Assembly: GCF_000512915.1 (NCBI RefSeq)
Contig: NZ_CP007034.1
Span: forward strand, 1,178,001-1,242,000
DNA length: 64,000 nucleotides
Direction of reading: 5' to 3'
Source: Barnesiella viscericola DSM 18177
GTDB lineage: Bacteria; Bacteroidota; Bacteroidia; Bacteroidales; Barnesiellaceae
The notes beneath the pieces are model-generated. The model worked only from the letters and a program-made list of their open reading frames with translations, did no database searches and was not told the origin of the DNA. Every line of letters starts with the position of its first letter. Position 1 is the first letter of the stretch. Position numbers and translations under genes: made by a program. Positions 15,219-56,549 of this stretch are shown piece after piece.

Positions 15219-16040
15219 ATGAAAAGAAGCATACTGGATATCTCGGACTTACAAGACATTATTCCCCAACTGAACAACGAGTGGGGAGCCAAACTGCTCA
15301 AACAGCTGATCAAAATATGTAAAGTCGACGATATCAATGCCCTGTACGGACGACACTGCGACCTGCGAGGGGCCGATTTCGTCAACGCCATCATCGACGA
15401 TTTGGACATCACCTGCCGAATCGACAACGAAGAGGTGCTCGACCACCTGCCCGAAGGCTCGTTCGTCACCATCTCCAACCACCCGTTCGGAGCCCTCGAC
15501 GGCGTCATCATCATCAAGCAGATTGCCTCGCGCCGACCCGACTACAAGGTGATGGTCAACTGGATACTCGGCTACATCAAAGCCATGTCCGACAACTTCA
15601 TTGCCGTAGACCCCTACTCCAACCCCGACCACCGCATCGTCTCACTCAACGGCATACGCGAAGCCCTCATGCAGGTCAAAAACGGCCACCCCCTCGGGTT
15701 CTTCCCGGCAGGAGCCGTGTCGCGGCTCAAATGGAGCCTTAAAATCGAGGACCGGGAGTGGCAGCCCAACATCATACGCCTTATCCAGCAGATAAAGAAA
15801 CCCGTGATTCCCGTCTATTTCCACGGGCACAACTCCCTGCTATACAATCTGCTGGGACTAATCAGCTGGCAACTGCGCGCCATGCGCCTCCCCGCCGAAG
15901 TCTTCAAGAAAGAACACAAGACCATACACTTGACTGTGGGCAACATCATCTCGCCCGAAACTCAGGCCCAATATCGCACCACCGAAGAGTTGGGGGCTTT
16001 CCTCCGTCAGGAAACCGACAAGTTGAGAAAGGTAAAATAA
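15219..16040 (+). CDS. lysophospholipid acyltransferase-like protein
   Basis: 273 residues resembling PlsC-type glycerol or lysophospholipid acyltransferases. The first motif is NHPFGALDG. The His-to-Asp distance is one residue longer than the usual H-x4-D, a variant I associate with hemolysin-like acyltransferases of Bacteroidota. FFPAGAVSR is the glycine-rich third motif and PVIPVYFHG the fourth. There is no obvious signal peptide, so it would act at the cytoplasmic face of the membrane. Exact acceptor unknown; phospholipid or an aminolipid are both possible. A -7-like TATTTTTG (15160-15167) lies upstream without a clear -33 box. Confidence 0.8.
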   Translation: MKRSILDISDLQDIIPQLNNEWGAKLLKQLIKICKVDDINALYGRHCDLRGADFVNAIIDDLDITCRIDNEEVLDHLPEGSFVTISNHPFGALDGVIIIKQIASRRPDYKVMVNWILGYIKAMSDNFIAVDPYSNPDHRIVSLNGIREALMQVKNGHPLGFFPAGAVSRLKWSLKIEDREWQPNIIRLIQQIKKPVIPVYFHGHNSLLYNLLGLISWQLRAMRLPAEVFKKEHKTIHLTVGNIISPETQAQYRTTEELGAFLRQETDKLRKVK

Positions 16041-16084
16041 CAGCCTTGAATGCGTACAACACTATGACTGGCCTCCTGTTTCCC

Positions 16085-16345
16085 TATCTTTGGATAGGAG
16101 ATAGGAGGTGAGCCGTCATGATCTATCCTGAAAATTGCATTTTCACTTGTCTCTGCTCTCGCCTTTCGCTATCTTTGTAGAAGATAGGATTCGGCTCGGT
16201 ATAGCCAAACTCGGAAACTACGTTTTCATTTGTCTCTGCTCACACCTTTCACTATCTTTCCATAAAATAGGAGGCGGATCGGCATAATCAAACCGAGAAA
16301 ACTTCGTTTTCCGTTTGTCTCTGCTCTCGCCTTTCACTATCTTTG
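16085..16345 (+). repeat. tandem ~84-bp promoter-bearing repeat, three units plus a start
   Basis: The 328 bp before the sigma-54-type regulator hold no gene. They contain direct repeats whose -7 boxes fall at 16085 (TATCTTTG), 16170 (TATCTTTG), 16253 (TATCTTTC) and 16338 (TATCTTTG), periods 85, 83 and 85 bp. Each unit runs: -7 box; a variable stretch with GATAGGA; a GG-rich part (GGATTCGGCTCGG in the second); a small inverted repeat; -33 TTTGTC or CTTGTC; then CTCTGCTC. The inverted repeats are GAAAAT-TGC-ATTTTC (16130-16144), GGAAAC-TAC-GTTTTC (16213-16227) and GAAAAC-TTC-GTTTTC (16297-16311). A related copy lies at 23180-23270 on the other strand. Confidence 0.85.
16314..16345 (+). promoter_or_regulatory. 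proximal promoter of the sigma-54-type regulator gene
   Basis: TTTG (16314-16317), 20 bp, TATCTTTG (16338-16345). Equivalent pairs with the same 20-bp spacing occur at 16146/16170 (CTTG) and 16229/16253 (TTTG), so the gene may have three tandem promoters. Predicted start near 16352. Confidence 0.75.
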
Positions 16346-16368
16346 TAGACCTAATGATTTCAAGAGAT

Positions 16369-17631
16369 ATGATTCCCGCAGAAGTACAGCAAACCAAACA
16401 GCGATTCGGCATCATAGGAAATGCCCCGGGGTTGATACGCGCCATCACCCGGGCTCTGCAAATCGCTCCCATCGACCTAGCCGTGCTCATCACCGGAGAG
16501 AGTGGTGCCGGAAAAGAGTTTTTCCCGCAGATCATTCATGCCAACAGCTCGCGCAAGCATGGGAAATATATTGCCGTCAACTGCGGTGCCATCCCCGAGG
16601 GAACGATTGACTCCGAACTGTTCGGTCACGAAAAGGGGGCCTTCACAGGCGCCTTGTCGGCCCGCAAGGGTTATTTCGAGGAGGCCGACGGCGGTACCAT
16701 CTTTCTCGACGAGGTGGGAGAACTGCCCCTCACCACACAGGCCCGGTTGCTGCGTGTGCTCGAAAGCGGCGAGTTTCTCAAAGTAGGCTCCTCGACGGTA
16801 CTGAAAACCAACGTGCGCATCGTGGCAGCCACCAACCTCGACATGGTCAAGGCGGTGTCGGAGGGGAAATTCCGCGAAGATCTCTACTACCGGCTCAGCA
16901 CCATACACATCGAGATACCGCCCTTGCGCGAACGGGGCGACGATATTCTGCTGCTCTTCCGCAAATTCTCGACCGACTTTGCCGAACGCTACCGCATGCC
17001 TGTCATTCAACTCACCGACGATGCCCGCAACGTATTGCTCAACTACCGCTGGCCGGGTAACGTGCGCCAGCTGAAAAACATCACCGAGCAGCTCTCTATC
17101 TTCGAGACCAACCGCGAGGTCGACGGCGCTACCTTGCAGGGCTATCTGCCCCAGTACAATATCGAAAAGTTACCGGCCCGCTCCACCCCTACCGAGCAAG
17201 ACCGCACCTTCTTCGAGAAGGAGCGCAAGATGCTCTACAAGACACTCTTTGAGATGCAGAAGGAGTTGGCCGACCTGCATGCCAAGGTCGAAGAACTCAC
17301 CAAGGGGCAACCGGTACAAACGACAACGATTACCCCGTCGACCCAATCGGTTACCGTAGCCCGTTCCATGGCACTCACACCCGTCACGACGGCTATCCCC
17401 GTCCATGTACCGTCGCCCAAAAGCAAAACCATCGACGAGACCGAAGGCGAGGTTATCCCCAATGAGGCCGAATATGTGGAGGAGCAACCTACCACGCTCG
17501 AAGATACCGAAAAGGAGACCATTCGCAAAGCCTTGATACGCAACCACGGGAAGCGCAAAAAGACGGCCGAGGAGCTGAAAATCTCGGAGCGCACCCTCTA
17601 CCGCAAAATCAAGGAGTATAACTTAGAATAA
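16369..17631 (+). CDS. sigma-54-dependent transcriptional activator (AAA+ and Fis-type HTH)
   Basis: A 420-residue bacterial enhancer-binding protein without a receiver domain. The start at 16369 (MIPAEVQQ) is preferred over 16354 because the proximal promoter would begin transcription near 16352 and an AAGAG stretch precedes it. Walker A is GESGAGKE (about 43-50), the sigma-54 contact loop GAFTGA is intact (about 90-95), and Walker B is GGTIFLDE. WPGNVRQLKN and a C-terminal Fis-type helix-turn-helix (TAEELKISERTLYRKIKEY) complete it. A P/T-rich linker of about 100 residues lies before the HTH. With no sensor domain its input is unclear. lptE, a TPR-like gene and secG follow closely, an order I recall as common in Bacteroidales. 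Confidence 0.93.
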   Translation: MIPAEVQQTKQRFGIIGNAPGLIRAITRALQIAPIDLAVLITGESGAGKEFFPQIIHANSSRKHGKYIAVNCGAIPEGTIDSELFGHEKGAFTGALSARKGYFEEADGGTIFLDEVGELPLTTQARLLRVLESGEFLKVGSSTVLKTNVRIVAATNLDMVKAVSEGKFREDLYYRLSTIHIEIPPLRERGDDILLLFRKFSTDFAERYRMPVIQLTDDARNVLLNYRWPGNVRQLKNITEQLSIFETNREVDGATLQGYLPQYNIEKLPARSTPTEQDRTFFEKERKMLYKTLFEMQKELADLHAKVEELTKGQPVQTTTITPSTQSVTVARSMALTPVTTAIPVHVPSPKSKTIDETEGEVIPNEAEYVEEQPTTLEDTEKETIRKALIRNHGKRKKTAEELKISERTLYRKIKEYNLE

Positions 17632-17650: not shown

Positions 17651-18154
17651 ATGCCTATGAAACGGATTATCACCATGCTGCTCGTCGTGCTCTCGTCATG
17701 CAGCATCTCCTATAAGTTCAACGGAGCCTCGATCAACTACGACACGACCAAAACCATATCGATTGCCAACTTCCCCATCAAGGCGGCCTTGGTATATCCG
17801 CCGTTGGAGGAGTTGTTTACCAACTCGTTGAAAAACGCCTATACCCGCCAGACCCGTCTGCAAATCGTCAACAGCAACGGCGATCTGCAACTCGAAGGCG
17901 AGATTACCAACTACGACCTCACCCCCCAGGCCGTTACCGAGAATGCCTATGCCTCGCAAACGCGGCTCACCATCACGGTGCGGGTGCGGTTTACCAACAC
18001 CAAGGATCCCCAATTCGACCTGGACCAGAGTTTCTCGGGCTATAAGGACTTTTCAAGCACGCAGATGCTCACCGACGTGCAGGACGAGCTGATTCAGCAA
18101 ATCACCGACGAACTGGTGGACCAGATTTTCAATGCAACCGTAGCCAACTGGTAA
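17651..18154 (+). CDS. lptE: LptE-family LPS assembly lipoprotein
   Basis: 167 residues; M3 is an equally good start. A short signal sequence ends in the lipobox LSSC, so it is an outer-membrane lipoprotein. The rest (SYKFNGASINYDTTKTISI, then LEGEITNYDLTPQAV) fits the LptE family, which plugs and guides the LptD barrel in lipopolysaccharide export. It starts 19 bp after the regulator gene and 4 bp separate it from the next gene, so it is cotranscribed. lptC lies elsewhere in the window. Confidence 0.85.
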   Translation: MPMKRIITMLLVVLSSCSISYKFNGASINYDTTKTISIANFPIKAALVYPPLEELFTNSLKNAYTRQTRLQIVNSNGDLQLEGEITNYDLTPQAVTENAYASQTRLTITVRVRFTNTKDPQFDLDQSFSGYKDFSSTQMLTDVQDELIQQITDELVDQIFNATVANW

Positions 18155-18158
18155 TGCC

Positions 18159-18887
18159 ATGATTTCACGCGAACAAATACGCAACTTGCTCAACGGGGTG
18201 TGCGACCAGCCCATCACCCGGGCCGACGCCGACCAGATGGCCGCCGACTACCCCTACTTCACCGTGCCGCAACTGCTCTATCTCAAATACACCCCCGGGG
18301 CCATGCCCGACGAGCGTCGCATTCAGCAGGCGCTCATTCAGGCCAGTCCCGACGAGCACCTGGAAACGGTTCTCGACATCGAGGGCGAATCGTTTGCCGA
18401 CCTCTACCCCAAGGCTCCCCACACCGATACCACCATGCAGGCGATTGACCTCTTCCTGGGGACTTACCAGAAAGGAGGCAAACTCCCCACCGAAGATAGC
18501 CTCGACAAGCTCATCGCGGGCAGCGTGCTGGCCCAGGCCGACTACATGAGCCTGCTGAAAGACGAGCAACCGGCCACACCCCAGCCCGAACGGAAAGCCG
18601 CTCCGGCTCAGCCAGCCGTCGAACGCAAGCTCGAAACAGGACCGACACCCACCCGAAAGGCCACGGCCGAACGGGGGAATGCCCCGGCTGTACCGCCCGC
18701 CGACACGGCTACCGACGATACCTTCTTCACCGAAAGTCTGGCCAAAATCTACATCAAACAGCGGCGATATGAGAAGGCTTTGCAAATAATTAAAAAATTA
18801 AGTTTGAAATATCCAGAAAAAAATATTTACTTTGCAGACCAAATAAGATTTTTGGAAAAATTGATTATTAACATAAAAACAGAATAA
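18159..18887 (+). CDS. conserved TPR-like protein of the lptE-secG cluster, function unknown
   Basis: 242 residues, no signal peptide. An N-terminal helical region (residues 1-130) is followed by a proline/alanine/threonine-rich linker (about 140-190). The C-terminal segment (ESLAKIYIKQRRYEKALQII) looks like a single tetratricopeptide repeat with a final helix. The last 100 bp are much more AT-rich than the rest. It is tightly spaced between lptE (4 bp) and secG (6 bp). I know of no function; a scaffold role near the envelope-secretion genes is only a guess from position. Confidence 0.75.
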   Translation: MISREQIRNLLNGVCDQPITRADADQMAADYPYFTVPQLLYLKYTPGAMPDERRIQQALIQASPDEHLETVLDIEGESFADLYPKAPHTDTTMQAIDLFLGTYQKGGKLPTEDSLDKLIAGSVLAQADYMSLLKDEQPATPQPERKAAPAQPAVERKLETGPTPTRKATAERGNAPAVPPADTATDDTFFTESLAKIYIKQRRYEKALQIIKKLSLKYPEKNIYFADQIRFLEKLIINIKTE

Positions 18888-18893
18888 CAGAAA

Positions 18894-19289
18894 ATGTCAG
18901 TAGTATTAACCGTTTTTATCATCTTGGCTTCGTTGCTGATGATAGGCATCGTATTGGTACAGAAATCAAAAGGGGGAGGCCTTGCTTCCAATTTCGCATC
19001 ATCTAACCAGATTATGGGTGTTCGCAAGACCACCGATTTCGTAGAGAAAGCCACTTGGACACTGGCTGTCGTAATCATGGTTTTAAGCATAGCTACCGTA
19101 TTTGTATCGCACAACAGTCAAACCACTTCCGGTTCGGAAATCAAAGACGTAGTAAACACCGAGGCTCCTGCCGCCCTCCCCGGATTCGAAACTCCGGCTA
19201 CCGGCAACCAAGCTGCTCCGGCTCAACAAGCCCCTGCTCAACAGGCTCCTGCCCAAGAAGCACCGGCTCAGGAGACTCCGGCCCAGTAA
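18894..19289 (+). CDS. secG: preprotein translocase subunit SecG with Ala/Pro/Gln-rich tail
   Basis: SecG helps SecYEG move proteins across the inner membrane. Two hydrophobic helices (about residues 2-23 and 52-72) surround the family motif QKSKGGGLASNF. The 131-residue length is longer than the usual 75-115 because of a C-terminal tail of imperfect APAQQ/APAQE pentapeptides from about residue 98, exposed outside the membrane domain. It is the last gene of the regulator-lptE-TPR-secG run and is followed by a terminator. Confidence 0.93.
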   Translation: MSVVLTVFIILASLLMIGIVLVQKSKGGGLASNFASSNQIMGVRKTTDFVEKATWTLAVVIMVLSIATVFVSHNSQTTSGSEIKDVVNTEAPAALPGFETPATGNQAAPAQQAPAQQAPAQEAPAQETPAQ

Positions 19290-22701: not shown

Positions 22702-23166
22702 TTACTTTTTCAAAATCTGTGCGGCGTGGTTCTTGGTATCGACCTTCTCGATCACATCGGCAATCACACCGTTCTCGTCGATGATAAAGGTTGTGCGCAC
22801 GGTTCCCATGTAGGTGCGGCCCGCCATCTTCTTCTCGCGCCATACCCCGAAAGCCTCGTTCAACGTCAACGCCGTGTCGGCAATCAGCGGGAAAGGCAAC
22901 GCCTGCTTCTCGATAAACTTCACGTGCGAAGCCTCGCTATCCTTGCTCACCCCCACCACGGCATACCCGGCAGCCTGCAAGTCGGCATAGTTGTCGCGCA
23001 GGTTGCAAGCCTCGGCCGTACAGCCGGGAGTATTGTCCTTGGGATAGAAATAAAGTACCAGTTTGCGACCCGCAAAGTCGCTCAAACGTATCTCTTTGCC
23101 CGATTGGTCCACTCCCAATATCTCGGGAGCTTTGTCTCCTTGTTTCAGTGCCATAATCTTATCCAT
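22702..23166 (-). CDS. bcp: thioredoxin-dependent thiol peroxidase
   Basis: A peroxiredoxin of the Bcp/PrxQ class, 154 residues, that reduces hydrogen peroxide and organic hydroperoxides in the cytoplasm. The active-site block YFYPKDNTPGCTAEACNLRDNY carries the peroxidatic Cys (in PGCT) and the PrxQ resolving Cys five residues later. VVGVSKDSEASHVKF is also typical. M5 (MALKQGDKAPE) is an alternative start. It is the first gene of a two-gene unit with recA, linking oxidant defence with DNA repair. Confidence 0.96.
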   Translation of the reverse strand: MDKIMALKQGDKAPEILGVDQSGKEIRLSDFAGRKLVLYFYPKDNTPGCTAEACNLRDNYADLQAAGYAVVGVSKDSEASHVKFIEKQALPFPLIADTALTLNEAFGVWREKKMAGRTYMGTVRTTFIIDENGVIADVIEKVDTKNHAAQILKK

Positions 23167-23179
23167 TTAATTCATTATG

Positions 23180-23211
23180 TAAAGATAGTGATAGGTGAGA
23201 GTAGTGACAAA
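23180..23211 (-). promoter_or_regulatory. proximal promoter of bcp-recA
   Basis: -33 TTTG (23208-23211), 20-bp spacer, -7 TATCTTTA (23180-23187). A second pair with the same 20-bp spacing, TTTG then TACCTTTG (23263-23270), lies 83 bp further upstream. Confidence 0.75.
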
Positions 23212-23270
23212 CGAAAATGCAATTTTCAGGTTTGGTCCTACCGAACCGAATCCTATCTCATTCAAAGGTA
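23180..23270 (-). repeat. second copy of the promoter-bearing repeat, upstream of bcp-recA
   Basis: Read on the minus strand, one 83-bp unit runs from the -7 box TACCTTTG (23263-23270) through GATAGGATTCGGTTCGG, the inverted repeat GAAAATTGCATTTTC (23213-23227), -33 TTTG (23208-23211) and CTACTCTCACC to the next -7 box TATCTTTA (23180-23187). The 15-nt inverted repeat is identical to the first one of the array at 16130-16144. A third, more diverged -7 box, TATCTTTG, lies at 23356-23363. Confidence 0.8.
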
Positions 23271-54239: not shown

Positions 54240-56549
54240 TTACATCTCCACAATCAGCGAGCTGTAATCGGACCAGTTTGCCCGATACGTAGCTCCGGTT
54301 CCGGCCGGTACATAAATCTTGTAACTCACGGGATCCCAACCGCCGGGTTTGGGAAAGACGCCGCGCGAACTGCTGGCCAGCTCGGGGAAGGTTCCCGAAT
54401 CGATGTCGTCGAAGAGTATGGTAACCGATACCAGCCCCATCTGATCCCGGGAACTGCGGGTATTGAAGGCCATATCGCCAATCGACTGAATACCCCGGCC
54501 TATCACCACTGTCTTCAACGCAGTACACTCGCCAAAGGCCTGCTTGCCTATCTCGGTCACACCGTCGCCGATAATAGCCTCCACCAAGCTCGTACAGTAA
54601 ATAAAGGCCGAATTCCCGATGGCTGTCACGCTGTTGGGAATCTCGATGCGAGTCAAGGCCGAACACCGTTCAAAAGCATTGTACTCGATGGTTTTGAGGC
54701 CGTCGGGCAAGACAATCTCCTGCAAGTTCTTGCAGTACTGGAAGGTATTCAGTTGAATGGTTTCGAGCTTGTTCCCCTCGAACACCACCTTGGTCAACGG
54801 CGACACCCTGCTCGTCCCTTCGTAATCGAAGGCCGAACTACCCAACGTTTCAAGGTTGGCAGGGAGAGTTATCTCGGTCAAGTTACATTTCGAGAAGGCA
54901 TACTGGTCTATCTCGACCAGCGACTCGGGCAGGGTAATCGATTCGAGAGCGCTGTTGTTAAAGGCGTTGTGCCCGATATAGGTAATTCCTTCGGGCAGGA
55001 CGATGCTGCGTATGGCCTGTTCGCTGTTGAAGGCACTCGGCTCGACATCGGTCACGGTACCTACATAGGCCCACCGGCCCTCGCCGGTAGCGGCATCGTA
55101 GGTACTCAAATCGGTCAGGAATTCACAATCCTTGCCCCAGAAATAGGGATCGCCGGGGAAGTCGGCACTGGTAATATACAACTGCTCGGTAGCCGTGTAG
55201 GGAATATATTTCACCTGCTTGATGACCAGTTTGCGCATGAGGGTACGCTCGTCGTCCGAGGCAAAGACCAGCACCTCGACCGTAGCCCCTACCGCAGCCG
55301 GGTCGGCTGGAGCTGTAACTGTAATCTTCGAGGCCGACTTGTCGACAGCCACCTGATAATTGCTGTGCGAGATGCACTCGACCGCAATCGTGGCGTTGAG
55401 CGGATTGGTCAGCTCATAGGTCACCTCGGCCGAAGCGCCGACCCCACAGTAGAGAGCCATCTCTCTCAACCGGTCACTACCCGAAACAAACAGCAGGTCG
55501 AACTTGTCGCGATAATAGGGCAACTTGATTTGCTCTCCGCTACCGGCCAGGGTAAGAATCAGATAATCGGGGTTGGAAACGTCAATATCACTGAACATGG
55601 AGTCGCCGTTCTGCCCGGCATCGCCGGTAGCCTGCCCCAGTTGTGTCCAGGTCAGCCCCTCGTCGTAAGAGATGTACCAATAACCATCGGCGCGAATCTC
55701 CAACCGAGGAGTGATACCATCGTCTCCCTTGTCCCCCGCATTACCTTTGAGTGAAGCCAGCCACTCATCGAGTGTCCCCTGATAACCATTCTCTACGGCC
55801 AGTTCATAAGCCGATTTGCCATCGGCACCCGTGCTGCCGTTGAGTGAGGCCAGCCACTCTTCAAGCGTCCCCTGATAACCATTCTCTACGGCCAGCTCAT
55901 AAGCCGATTTGCCGTCGGTGCCCGTGTTTCCTTTGAGCGAAGCCAGCCATTCGTCAAGTGTCCCCTGATAACCTTTTTCTACGGCCAGTTCATAGGCCGA
56001 TTTACCATTGTCTCCATCATCGCCTGCCTCACCCTTGCCACCGTCTTCACCGTTGAGCGAAGCCAGCCACTCTTCGAGGGTGCCCTGGTAACCCTTCTCG
56101 ACAGCCAGTTCATAAGCCGATTTACCTTCCAGCCCATGCGCTATTACCTTCTCGCCCCGATCGTTGAGCAGCCACTCTCCGTCGAGAGTCCAGTAATAGA
56201 GCCCGTCGGTATCCTGCTTCACTCCGATCAAGGGTGTAGAGCCCGACTCGCCATCGGAGCCGTGGTAGATAGTCACCGGTCCGCTCTTGGTAAAGGTGAT
56301 GGTGTAGCCTACCGTCTGGCCATTCTCGACCACAGGAGCTACTCCCGTCACATAATCATTACCCTGCAAAGCCTCGACAATCTGTTGCAACGAATTTATA
56401 TTGGTATTCATCTGGCTGCACAGCTCTTCCAGAGCTGCCAGCCGCGAGCCCATATCGGTATTCTTGTTCCACATGGCTATCTCGTCATACTCCGTACAGG
56501 AGACTAGCGTCAACAGCCCTATAATCAGATAGGTCAATCTCTTTTTCAT
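54240..56549 (-). CDS. BspA-like leucine-rich-repeat surface lipoprotein with DUF4988 and repeat linker
   Basis: 769 residues. A lipobox LVSC (Cys18) follows the signal peptide. Residues about 25-140 fit DUF4988 (coiled segment, then GQTVGYTITFTKSGPVTIYHG and GLYYWTLDGEWLLND). Residues 143-268 hold four near-identical copies of KSAYELAV...GYQGTLEEWLASL joined by Gly-rich triplet spacers. A beta domain (about 280-450) precedes about seven BspA-type LRR_5 repeats (about 500-750, pattern LPEGITYIGHNAFNNSALESITL). It is probably anchored to the outer surface and binds host or bacterial ligands. The next gene, in the same direction, starts 16 bp upstream. Confidence 0.88.
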   Translation of the reverse strand: MKKRLTYLIIGLLTLVSCTEYDEIAMWNKNTDMGSRLAALEELCSQMNTNINSLQQIVEALQGNDYVTGVAPVVENGQTVGYTITFTKSGPVTIYHGSDGESGSTPLIGVKQDTDGLYYWTLDGEWLLNDRGEKVIAHGLEGKSAYELAVEKGYQGTLEEWLASLNGEDGGKGEAGDDGDNGKSAYELAVEKGYQGTLDEWLASLKGNTGTDGKSAYELAVENGYQGTLEEWLASLNGSTGADGKSAYELAVENGYQGTLDEWLASLKGNAGDKGDDGITPRLEIRADGYWYISYDEGLTWTQLGQATGDAGQNGDSMFSDIDVSNPDYLILTLAGSGEQIKLPYYRDKFDLLFVSGSDRLREMALYCGVGASAEVTYELTNPLNATIAVECISHSNYQVAVDKSASKITVTAPADPAAVGATVEVLVFASDDERTLMRKLVIKQVKYIPYTATEQLYITSADFPGDPYFWGKDCEFLTDLSTYDAATGEGRWAYVGTVTDVEPSAFNSEQAIRSIVLPEGITYIGHNAFNNSALESITLPESLVEIDQYAFSKCNLTEITLPANLETLGSSAFDYEGTSRVSPLTKVVFEGNKLETIQLNTFQYCKNLQEIVLPDGLKTIEYNAFERCSALTRIEIPNSVTAIGNSAFIYCTSLVEAIIGDGVTEIGKQAFGECTALKTVVIGRGIQSIGDMAFNTRSSRDQMGLVSVTILFDDIDSGTFPELASSSRGVFPKPGGWDPVSYKIYVPAGTGATYRANWSDYSSLIVEM
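55746..56123 (-). repeat. four in-frame repeats within the LRR protein gene
   Basis: Copies at residues 143-166, 183-206, 214-237 and 245-268, giving periods of 40, 31 and 31 codons. DNA of the copies is nearly identical, so copy number could change by slippage or recombination without shifting frame. The spacers differ in length and are Gly-rich (for example GEDGGKGEAGDDGDNG). Confidence 0.85.

Follow-up and report, generated by a model that had tools for sequence, protein, structure and literature searches.

Hairpin promoter units stacked at -7 boxes in Barnesiella viscericola: a candidate family of mobile, promoter-regenerating modules

A tandem array of hairpin units upstream of a sigma-54-type regulator gene

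The window analysed here is a 64,000-nucleotide stretch (G000:C1:1178001-1242000) of the 3.08-Mb genome of Barnesiella viscericola DSM 18177, referred to below as G000. An array of hairpin units lies between an acyltransferase gene and a regulator gene that is followed by co-directional genes for LptE, a protein with no Pfam match and SecG (Table 1). The regulator had been taken from the DNA alone to be of the sigma-54 type, and its Pfam matches agree. Most relatives have a recognisable counterpart of its start codon at 16369, which lies 23 nt past the end of the -7 box of unit 3; another ATG is in frame at 16354.

Direct reading finds the four -7-like boxes where the initial annotation had placed them, three of them as TATCTTTG and the one at 16253 as TATCTTTC, with -33 motifs exactly 20 bases 5' of the last three. 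The tandem repeat of about 84 bp described there is likewise present as an array of 83-84 bp units, each with a -33/-7 pair at its end. A covariance model (see below) calls three units, Tandem Repeats Finder detects a repeat of period 83 at 16140-16349 (2.5 copies, score 276), and a 36-base promoter string of the array is matched twice in the window, once perfectly and once with 2 mismatches, where 0 matches are expected in shuffles. The same annotation spoke of complete promoters, which fits the boxes and their -33 spacing but is doubtful for the 16253 copy, because its box lacks the G of TAnnTTTG, the consensus given in PMC7366714 as deduced for B. fragilis. The first box, at 16085-16092, is probably the ancestral promoter box behind which units were inserted; by reading, a box stands 3' of the upstream gene in most of nine orthologous regulator promoters.

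Table 1. Features of the window at and near the hairpin promoter arrays
Feature	Position	Strand	Details
Upstream -7 box	16085-16092	+	TATCTTTG; directly 3' of acyltransferase gene (Acyltransf_2)
Hairpin promoter unit 1	16095-16178	+	10/13 stem pairs; -33 CTTG 16146-16149; -7 TATCTTTG 16170-16177
Hairpin promoter unit 2	16178-16261	+	12/13 stem pairs; -33 TTTG 16229-16232; -7 decayed, TATCTTTC 16253-16260
Hairpin promoter unit 3, gene-proximal	16261-16346	+	11/13 stem pairs; -33 TTTG 16314-16317; -7 TATCTTTG 16338-16345
Sigma-54-type AAA+ regulator, Fis-type HTH	16369-17631	+	Pfam Sigma54_activat E 3.7e-65, HTH_8
LptE	17657-18154	+	downstream co-directional gene
ORF	18159-18887	+	between LptE and SecG; no Pfam match
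SecG	18894-19289	+	downstream co-directional gene
AhpC/TSA-family gene	22702-23166	-	directly downstream of the 23179-23262 unit
Second array, one unit	23179-23262	-	84 bits; terminal box TATCTTTA; older box precedes unit

The window also holds a 93-bp tandem repeat at 55747-56008 (2.8 copies) within a minus-strand gene call, perhaps encoding ankyrin-type protein repeats.

Alignment of 42 units gives the consensus AGAAGATAGGATGCGGCTCGGCAT..CAAACTTGAAAACTTCGTTTTCGTTTG.CTCTGCTCTCGCCTTTCACTATCTTTG, an imperfect hairpin with compensatory changes. The outer stem joins AAGATAG to CTATCTT, that is, the left arm pairs with the unit's own -7 box, and encloses an internal loop, a middle stem (CGGCTCGGC with GCTCTCGCC) and a variable tip palindrome. 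Subfamilies of 83-85, 73-74 and 75-77 bp differ in the tip, which by reading looks palindromic in each. The 8-bp box stands at both unit ends, and it is the right-hand box that covaries with the unit's left arm: at L031, a locus with two different flanking boxes, the left arm corresponds to the right-hand box of its own unit.

RNAalifold alone returned only 7 pairs, in the middle stem; the outer stem was added by hand and followed by shuffle and slide tests. Paired cells make up 90.8% of 546, against 84.4% in shuffled alignments (reached in 0 of 500), and 87.8% of cells in the outer stem are paired. Cells changed on both sides number 34, against a shuffled mean of 7.6 (0 of 500) and 1-8 when the alignment is slid, in counts that refer to sequences rather than events and are inflated by the relatedness of units; the 73-bp subfamily carries several stem changes together. 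The covariation score is 0.232 versus 0.112 (0 of 500), and two weaker measures give 6 versus 4.5 pairs with a double change (88 of 500) and 17 versus 14.5 further pair types (25 of 500). Folds of single units as DNA are modest (z from -2.70 to +0.69, n = 9 units, the highest value being that of window unit 2).

Units are dispersed in the genome and point towards genes

The initial annotation had reasoned that many dispersed hits in the genome and in relatives would mark a repeat family and that a lack of other genomic hits would speak against one. Dispersed units with conserved -33, -7 and inverted repeat were found in abundance. Used as a DNA query, the window array has 47 matches in G000, and a covariance model (R1) built from the 42-unit alignment finds at least 94 units at E <= 0.01, a lower bound obtained by scoring 150 of 1,424 first-look candidates. 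When same-strand neighbours are joined these form at least 62 arrays, so that the window array, tandem as described, is not isolated. Non-homologous genes are thus preceded by a repeated intergenic sequence, as expected of a mobile promoter.

Forty-one arrays contain a unit of at least 60 bits (one unit in 15, two in 20, three in 6). A downstream gene is called for 40 of these stronger arrays and is co-directional in all 40, at a median distance of 30 nt from unit end to called start; the remaining array lies inside a CRISPR array. At array 2808053 the called gene is 1,560 nt away, and a co-directional ORF about 600 nt off is overlapped by an opposite-strand ORF. The gene caller assigns 20 of the 21 weaker arrays a co-directional gene and one no gene; by ORF lists two of them (1058370 and 2426722) face convergent genes, the orientation of the other 19 being that of the gene caller. 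The retrained caller missed some genes (as at L051), and ORF lists were used to correct three loci. The unit at 2426722-2426802 (L033:2223-2303; 58 bits) has no co-directional gene downstream and might drive a small RNA; an Rfam search of this locus returned no match.

The genes served are mostly housekeeping-like, judged from their first residues, and Pfam identifies DapB, a CBS-domain protein, an RsmD-type methyltransferase, FtsK, an aminotransferase and UvrD among them. Another dispersed palindromic repeat, GGATACCGCATCGAGGTGCGGTATGAC ... CCCCGCGCTGCGACGCGGGGTCCAG, often lies directly 5' of promoter unit arrays, with its exact core at L012:2473, L025:2473 and L032:2557 and variants in L029, L042, L161 and L262; it is absent from the window.

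Units of at least 60 bits at different loci have a median identity of 72% (1,868 pairs, 50 of them above 90%), and two unlinked units, at 1277444 and 2170101, do not differ at any of the 82 bases compared. Within arrays the median is 80% (23 pairs), with 5 above 90% and 4 pairs 94-98% alike. The high-identity pairs of both kinds point to ectopic spread together with local duplication. In a set of 60 genomes, R1 matches all 9 of the genus (G000-G008) and 3 among the other 51. A sample of the order, searched at E <= 1e-7 with stricter filters, has matches in 24 of 393 genomes; these fall under 11 family labels, and 5 of the 24 belong to the genus.

Units are gained, lost and exchanged at orthologous -7 boxes

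We read the promoters of six genes across the genus (the regulator, trkH-ftsK, obgE, dapB, the CBS-domain gene and rsmD). Unit counts are by reading; cmsearch drops some directly adjoining units. The regulator promoter has three units in G000, two in G004, one each in G008, G001 and G002 (the last with another tip), two diverged units in G006, and two units plus a CRISPR block in G003; cmsearch with R1 finds no match there in G005 or G007. At trkH-ftsK there are two units in G000, two plus one variant in G008 and four plus one variant in G002, while G004, G001, G007 and G005 have a bare single box, G003 has a different upstream neighbour and G006 gave no match to the query. The gene at this locus had been considered grpE-like from its first residues; Pfam assigns it to FtsK. 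Units precede obgE in G002, G004 and G005, none does in G000, G008, G003, G006 or G007, and G001 leaves no room for a promoter.

At dapB, an uninterrupted 83 bp stand at the box in G000 and are absent from G008 and G003. The additional unit matches the one at 573350 with 97.6% identity and does not resemble the local unit; it belongs to another subfamily than its neighbour, which rejects simple tandem duplication of the local promoter as the whole story, although local duplication does explain several near-identical neighbouring units. At the same native box of dapB, G005 is 73 bp longer than G007, whose otherwise empty promoter has a weak, partial R1 match of 27 bits. Before the CBS-domain gene, G000 and G008 have a similar first unit and different second units at the same box, and G002 and G004 have no unit. 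Before the aminotransferase gene, 83- and 73-type units occur in swapped order in G000 and G008. Orthologous sites thus differ by presence and absence of units, and a gain can be told securely from a loss only where the unit is missing from outgroups. The rsmD promoter of G008 was dismissed as an empty site, since its flank matches the left flank of G000 array L045, about 5 kb away; it is read as an inversion with a breakpoint at a box.

G000 and G008 are sister species whose matching blocks are 81.8-97.5% identical. Among 17 promoters or sites read in both, a non-random set taken from strong matches, 6 agree, 10 differ and 1 (rsmD) is inverted. Agreement in unit number and type is found at obgE, L021/L245, L016/L251, L014/L250, L043/L253 and the window unit at 23.2 kb (L256). 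Those that differ are the regulator, trkH-ftsK, dapB, the CBS-domain gene, a CRISPR-end site (L028/L260), L012/L257 (both copies of other sequence), L049/L258 (1 versus 3 units), L037/L259 (1 versus 2), L026/L181 (other terminal type) and L013/L182 (83- and 73-type order swapped). The initial annotation had counted identical intergenic sequence in all relatives as an argument against a mobile family; gains, losses and swaps were seen instead.

A BLAST comparison covered 21 regions of G008. Eleven of them were read as pairs, 4 lacked a counterpart among the G000 loci retrieved, and 6 (L180, L244, L246, L247, L249, L254) were left uncounted; L244 and L249 are joined differently in G000. Two rearrangements between these genomes have their breakpoints at inverted unit arrays, spaced about 5 kb in one case and 7 kb in the other: L009 and L045 versus L244/L225 are read as an inversion, and L032 and L029 versus L249 show up as split BLAST blocks.

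The same box also joins units to CRISPR repeats. G000 has a long CRISPR-DR49 array (L028:6254-8981; G000:C1 573.2-576 kb) whose repeats contain TATCTTTG, with a unit at one end. This unit, at 573350-573433, sits at TATCTTT between the 5' and 3' halves of a repeat and is followed by 33 Rfam CRISPR-DR49 matches. An older chimeric repeat end occupies L028:6254-6290, where a 3' arm resembling that of a unit runs into the 3' half of a repeat. At the same site in G008, identified by the same left spacer, another unit type follows the repeat half and no 3' half comes after; G002 has a lone repeat interrupted at the same place with both halves present, and G005 has two units within its CRISPR array, at the repeat TATCTTT. 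Rfam confirms the repeat family in G000, G005, G004 and G006 only; the repeats of G008, G002 and G003 are split and were assigned by pattern match. The right-hand joints of unit and repeat share 8 bp (TATCTTTG) in G000, G002 and G005 and 12 bp (TTTGTATCTTTG) in G003.

CRISPR repeat sequence within a gene promoter was seen in two cases. The terminal module of the G003 regulator promoter is a 77-bp repeat-spacer block running box to box, in a genome with a single match to the repeat pattern and hence no CRISPR array by that pattern. The uvrD promoter box of G002, where G000 has hairpin units, is a CRISPR repeat half with 2 mismatches. The units themselves are not CRISPR repeats, which are near-invariant and separated by unique spacers: units diverge, and their palindromic tips are common to several loci.

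Proposed insertion behind -7 boxes and its alternatives

We consider it likely, though by no means certain, that the family consists of mobile, promoter-regenerating hairpin modules that are exchanged or inserted at -7 boxes, the window array being one instance. A module would begin just after one -7 box, approximately where transcription starts, and continue across an imperfect hairpin into a new -33/-7 promoter; the -7 box of this promoter is the 3' arm of the hairpin. The module would enter with the same orientation, directly behind a TAtcTTTG box already in place, and the gene would thereby keep a promoter at a nearly unchanged distance. Each insertion would leave one more target box, so that arrays could grow by further insertions, local duplication and homogenisation; they would shrink, swap or invert through recombination. 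Entry behind a -7 box of a module that brings its own promoter would explain direction, position and box-to-box boundaries, and selection for promoter function could by itself enrich the orientation. The mobile promoter element already suggested by the initial annotation is thus strongly supported by the dispersed units and by their gains, losses and swaps at orthologous promoters.

Either a transposase that targets the -7 box or recombination or template switching between boxes would suffice to move such modules. We slightly prefer the latter, since the box-to-box rule also holds for CRISPR repeat-spacer blocks, whose similarity to units is limited to 8-12 bp at the joint; these blocks favour it weakly. 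Hairpins and melting of the box would help recombination or template switching, and the hairpin may be the substrate for movement.

A non-autonomous element of the MITE or hairpin (HUH) type, moved by a specific transposase that targets the -7 box, would share mobility with the preferred explanation and differ in the mover, the CRISPR cases then being incidental. A set length, ends that form a hairpin and insertion in one direction behind a short motif are reminiscent of single-stranded DNA transposition as known from IS200/IS605 and REP/RAYT, and the patchy presence under 11 family labels and the young subfamilies with near-identical copies would also fit. Against this, a search for one family, the Y1 transposase PF01797, gave 0 matches in G000 with 5 of 14 control genomes positive, no target duplication is clearly separable from the box (L031), and CRISPR blocks of unrelated sequence follow the same rule; we regard a dedicated transposase as possible but somewhat improbable. 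We propose just as tentatively that the -7 box is a general module-exchange point, at which any TATCTTTG-to-TATCTTTG block could be copied in behind another TATCTTTG; the family would be a population of selfish promoters. Insertion would then exploit promoter melting or the initiation complex as its site, and CRISPR arrays and gene promoters would trade parts through TATCTTTG.

The covariation could be unselected, made by quasi-palindrome template-switch repair that copies one arm onto the other. Such repair, which is compatible with mobility, yields double changes without function and fits a hairpin-prone sequence with many DNA rearrangements, but the internal loop and bulge remain unpaired (by reading) where it would perfect them, and we think it unlikely.

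Still less probable is a set of static tandem promoters whose copy number tunes expression, as the initial annotation had envisaged. Every unit has a -33/-7 pair, and copy number varies among orthologues, with 1-4 units at several genes; however, among the stronger arrays TAnnTTTG is intact in 39 of 41 terminal and only 20 of 32 inner boxes (Fisher p = 6e-4), 15 of the 41 hold a single unit, unit number is not fixed among orthologues and unit sequence spreads between loci. A -33-like motif 19-22 bp upstream is kept in 35 of 41 terminal and 31 of 32 inner units, so the inner decay is confined to the -7 box. The decay of inner boxes speaks against the proposal that copy number sets promoter strength, and we infer that the gene-proximal copy is the working promoter, which would maintain expression, as conservation suggests, while inner copies are mostly neutral residue.

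Equally improbable is a role of the hairpin at the RNA level, whether as a terminator that shields the gene from transcription further upstream or as a stem that stabilises the 5' end of transcripts begun at the previous box. The stem has compensatory changes, and transcripts from inner promoters would, from the box spacing, start approximately at the base of the next hairpin. Against this, the stronger arrays have a divergent upstream neighbour in 20 cases (a co-directional one in 18 and none called in 3), which rejects a terminator or insulator as the general role. Stem pairs are preserved at 85% in five single-unit arrays that lie in divergent regions, compared with 92% in the remaining 37 units, and 15900-16500 has one terminator-like match, on the opposite strand, with 0.5 expected.

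Relation to known systems

Insertion at a start site that spares the host gene recalls Ty3-type elements, yeast retrotransposons that integrate at the transcription starts of tRNA genes and leave the gene functional; they have no relation to the units here. Putative mobile promoters were reportedly described by Matus-Garcia et al. in 2012 ('Promoter propagation in prokaryotes', cited in PMC8049555). We know of no -7-box-directed insertion, self-stacking arrays, covarying -7-box hairpin or CRISPR repeat exchange among them, and the units described here, each of which carries a predicted promoter defined by sequence, would differ from them in these four properties.

A similar element is found in Porphyromonas gingivalis, which belongs to the same order as the host. 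This MITE, BrickBuilt, is intergenic and dispersed (19 copies in one strain) and, like the units, has tandem repeats inside and promoter elements (PMC4596501). Its 23-nt repeats are framed by leader and tail, its terminal inverted repeats resemble those of IS elements and its transcription is bidirectional, and the parts of PMC4596501 available describe no -7-box rule; terminal inverted repeats of the MITE kind are present in the units as the outer stem. Dispersed, palindromic units that fold into hairpins are shared with REP/RAYT systems (PMC3733652), and some units have GTAG at the 5' base. REPs measure 20-40 bp (PMC3733652), whereas the units are longer, carry promoters and sit at -7 boxes. 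With no Y1 transposase of the RAYT type (PF01797) in G000, membership of REP/RAYT was rejected, and the term REP-like used in the initial annotation does not apply in its strict sense. CRISPR-DR49 (Rfam RF01362) resembles the units in its tandem array, in the TATCTTTG of its 77-bp-period repeat and in common junctions, but with its unique spacers and near-invariant repeats is a distinct system that modules enter.

The general kind, mobile promoters and MITEs with promoters, is known (PMC4596501, PMC8049555, PMC9208149). Among the literature matches listed, with subscription papers outside their scope, none describes a hairpin that is directed to -7 boxes, stacks on itself and restores promoters, or an exchange between hairpin units and CRISPR repeats, and among the same matches harmless insertion at bacterial core promoters is not described.

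If the preferred reading of promoter-regenerating modules is right, many promoters in these bacteria would be in the course of replacement by mobile modules that target promoters and instantly restore them. This would be a harmless-insertion strategy of the sort known from tRNA-targeting elements. Promoters could in this way turn over quickly from one sister species to the next, inversions could arise with their breakpoints at promoters, and CRISPR arrays could exchange sequence with promoters.
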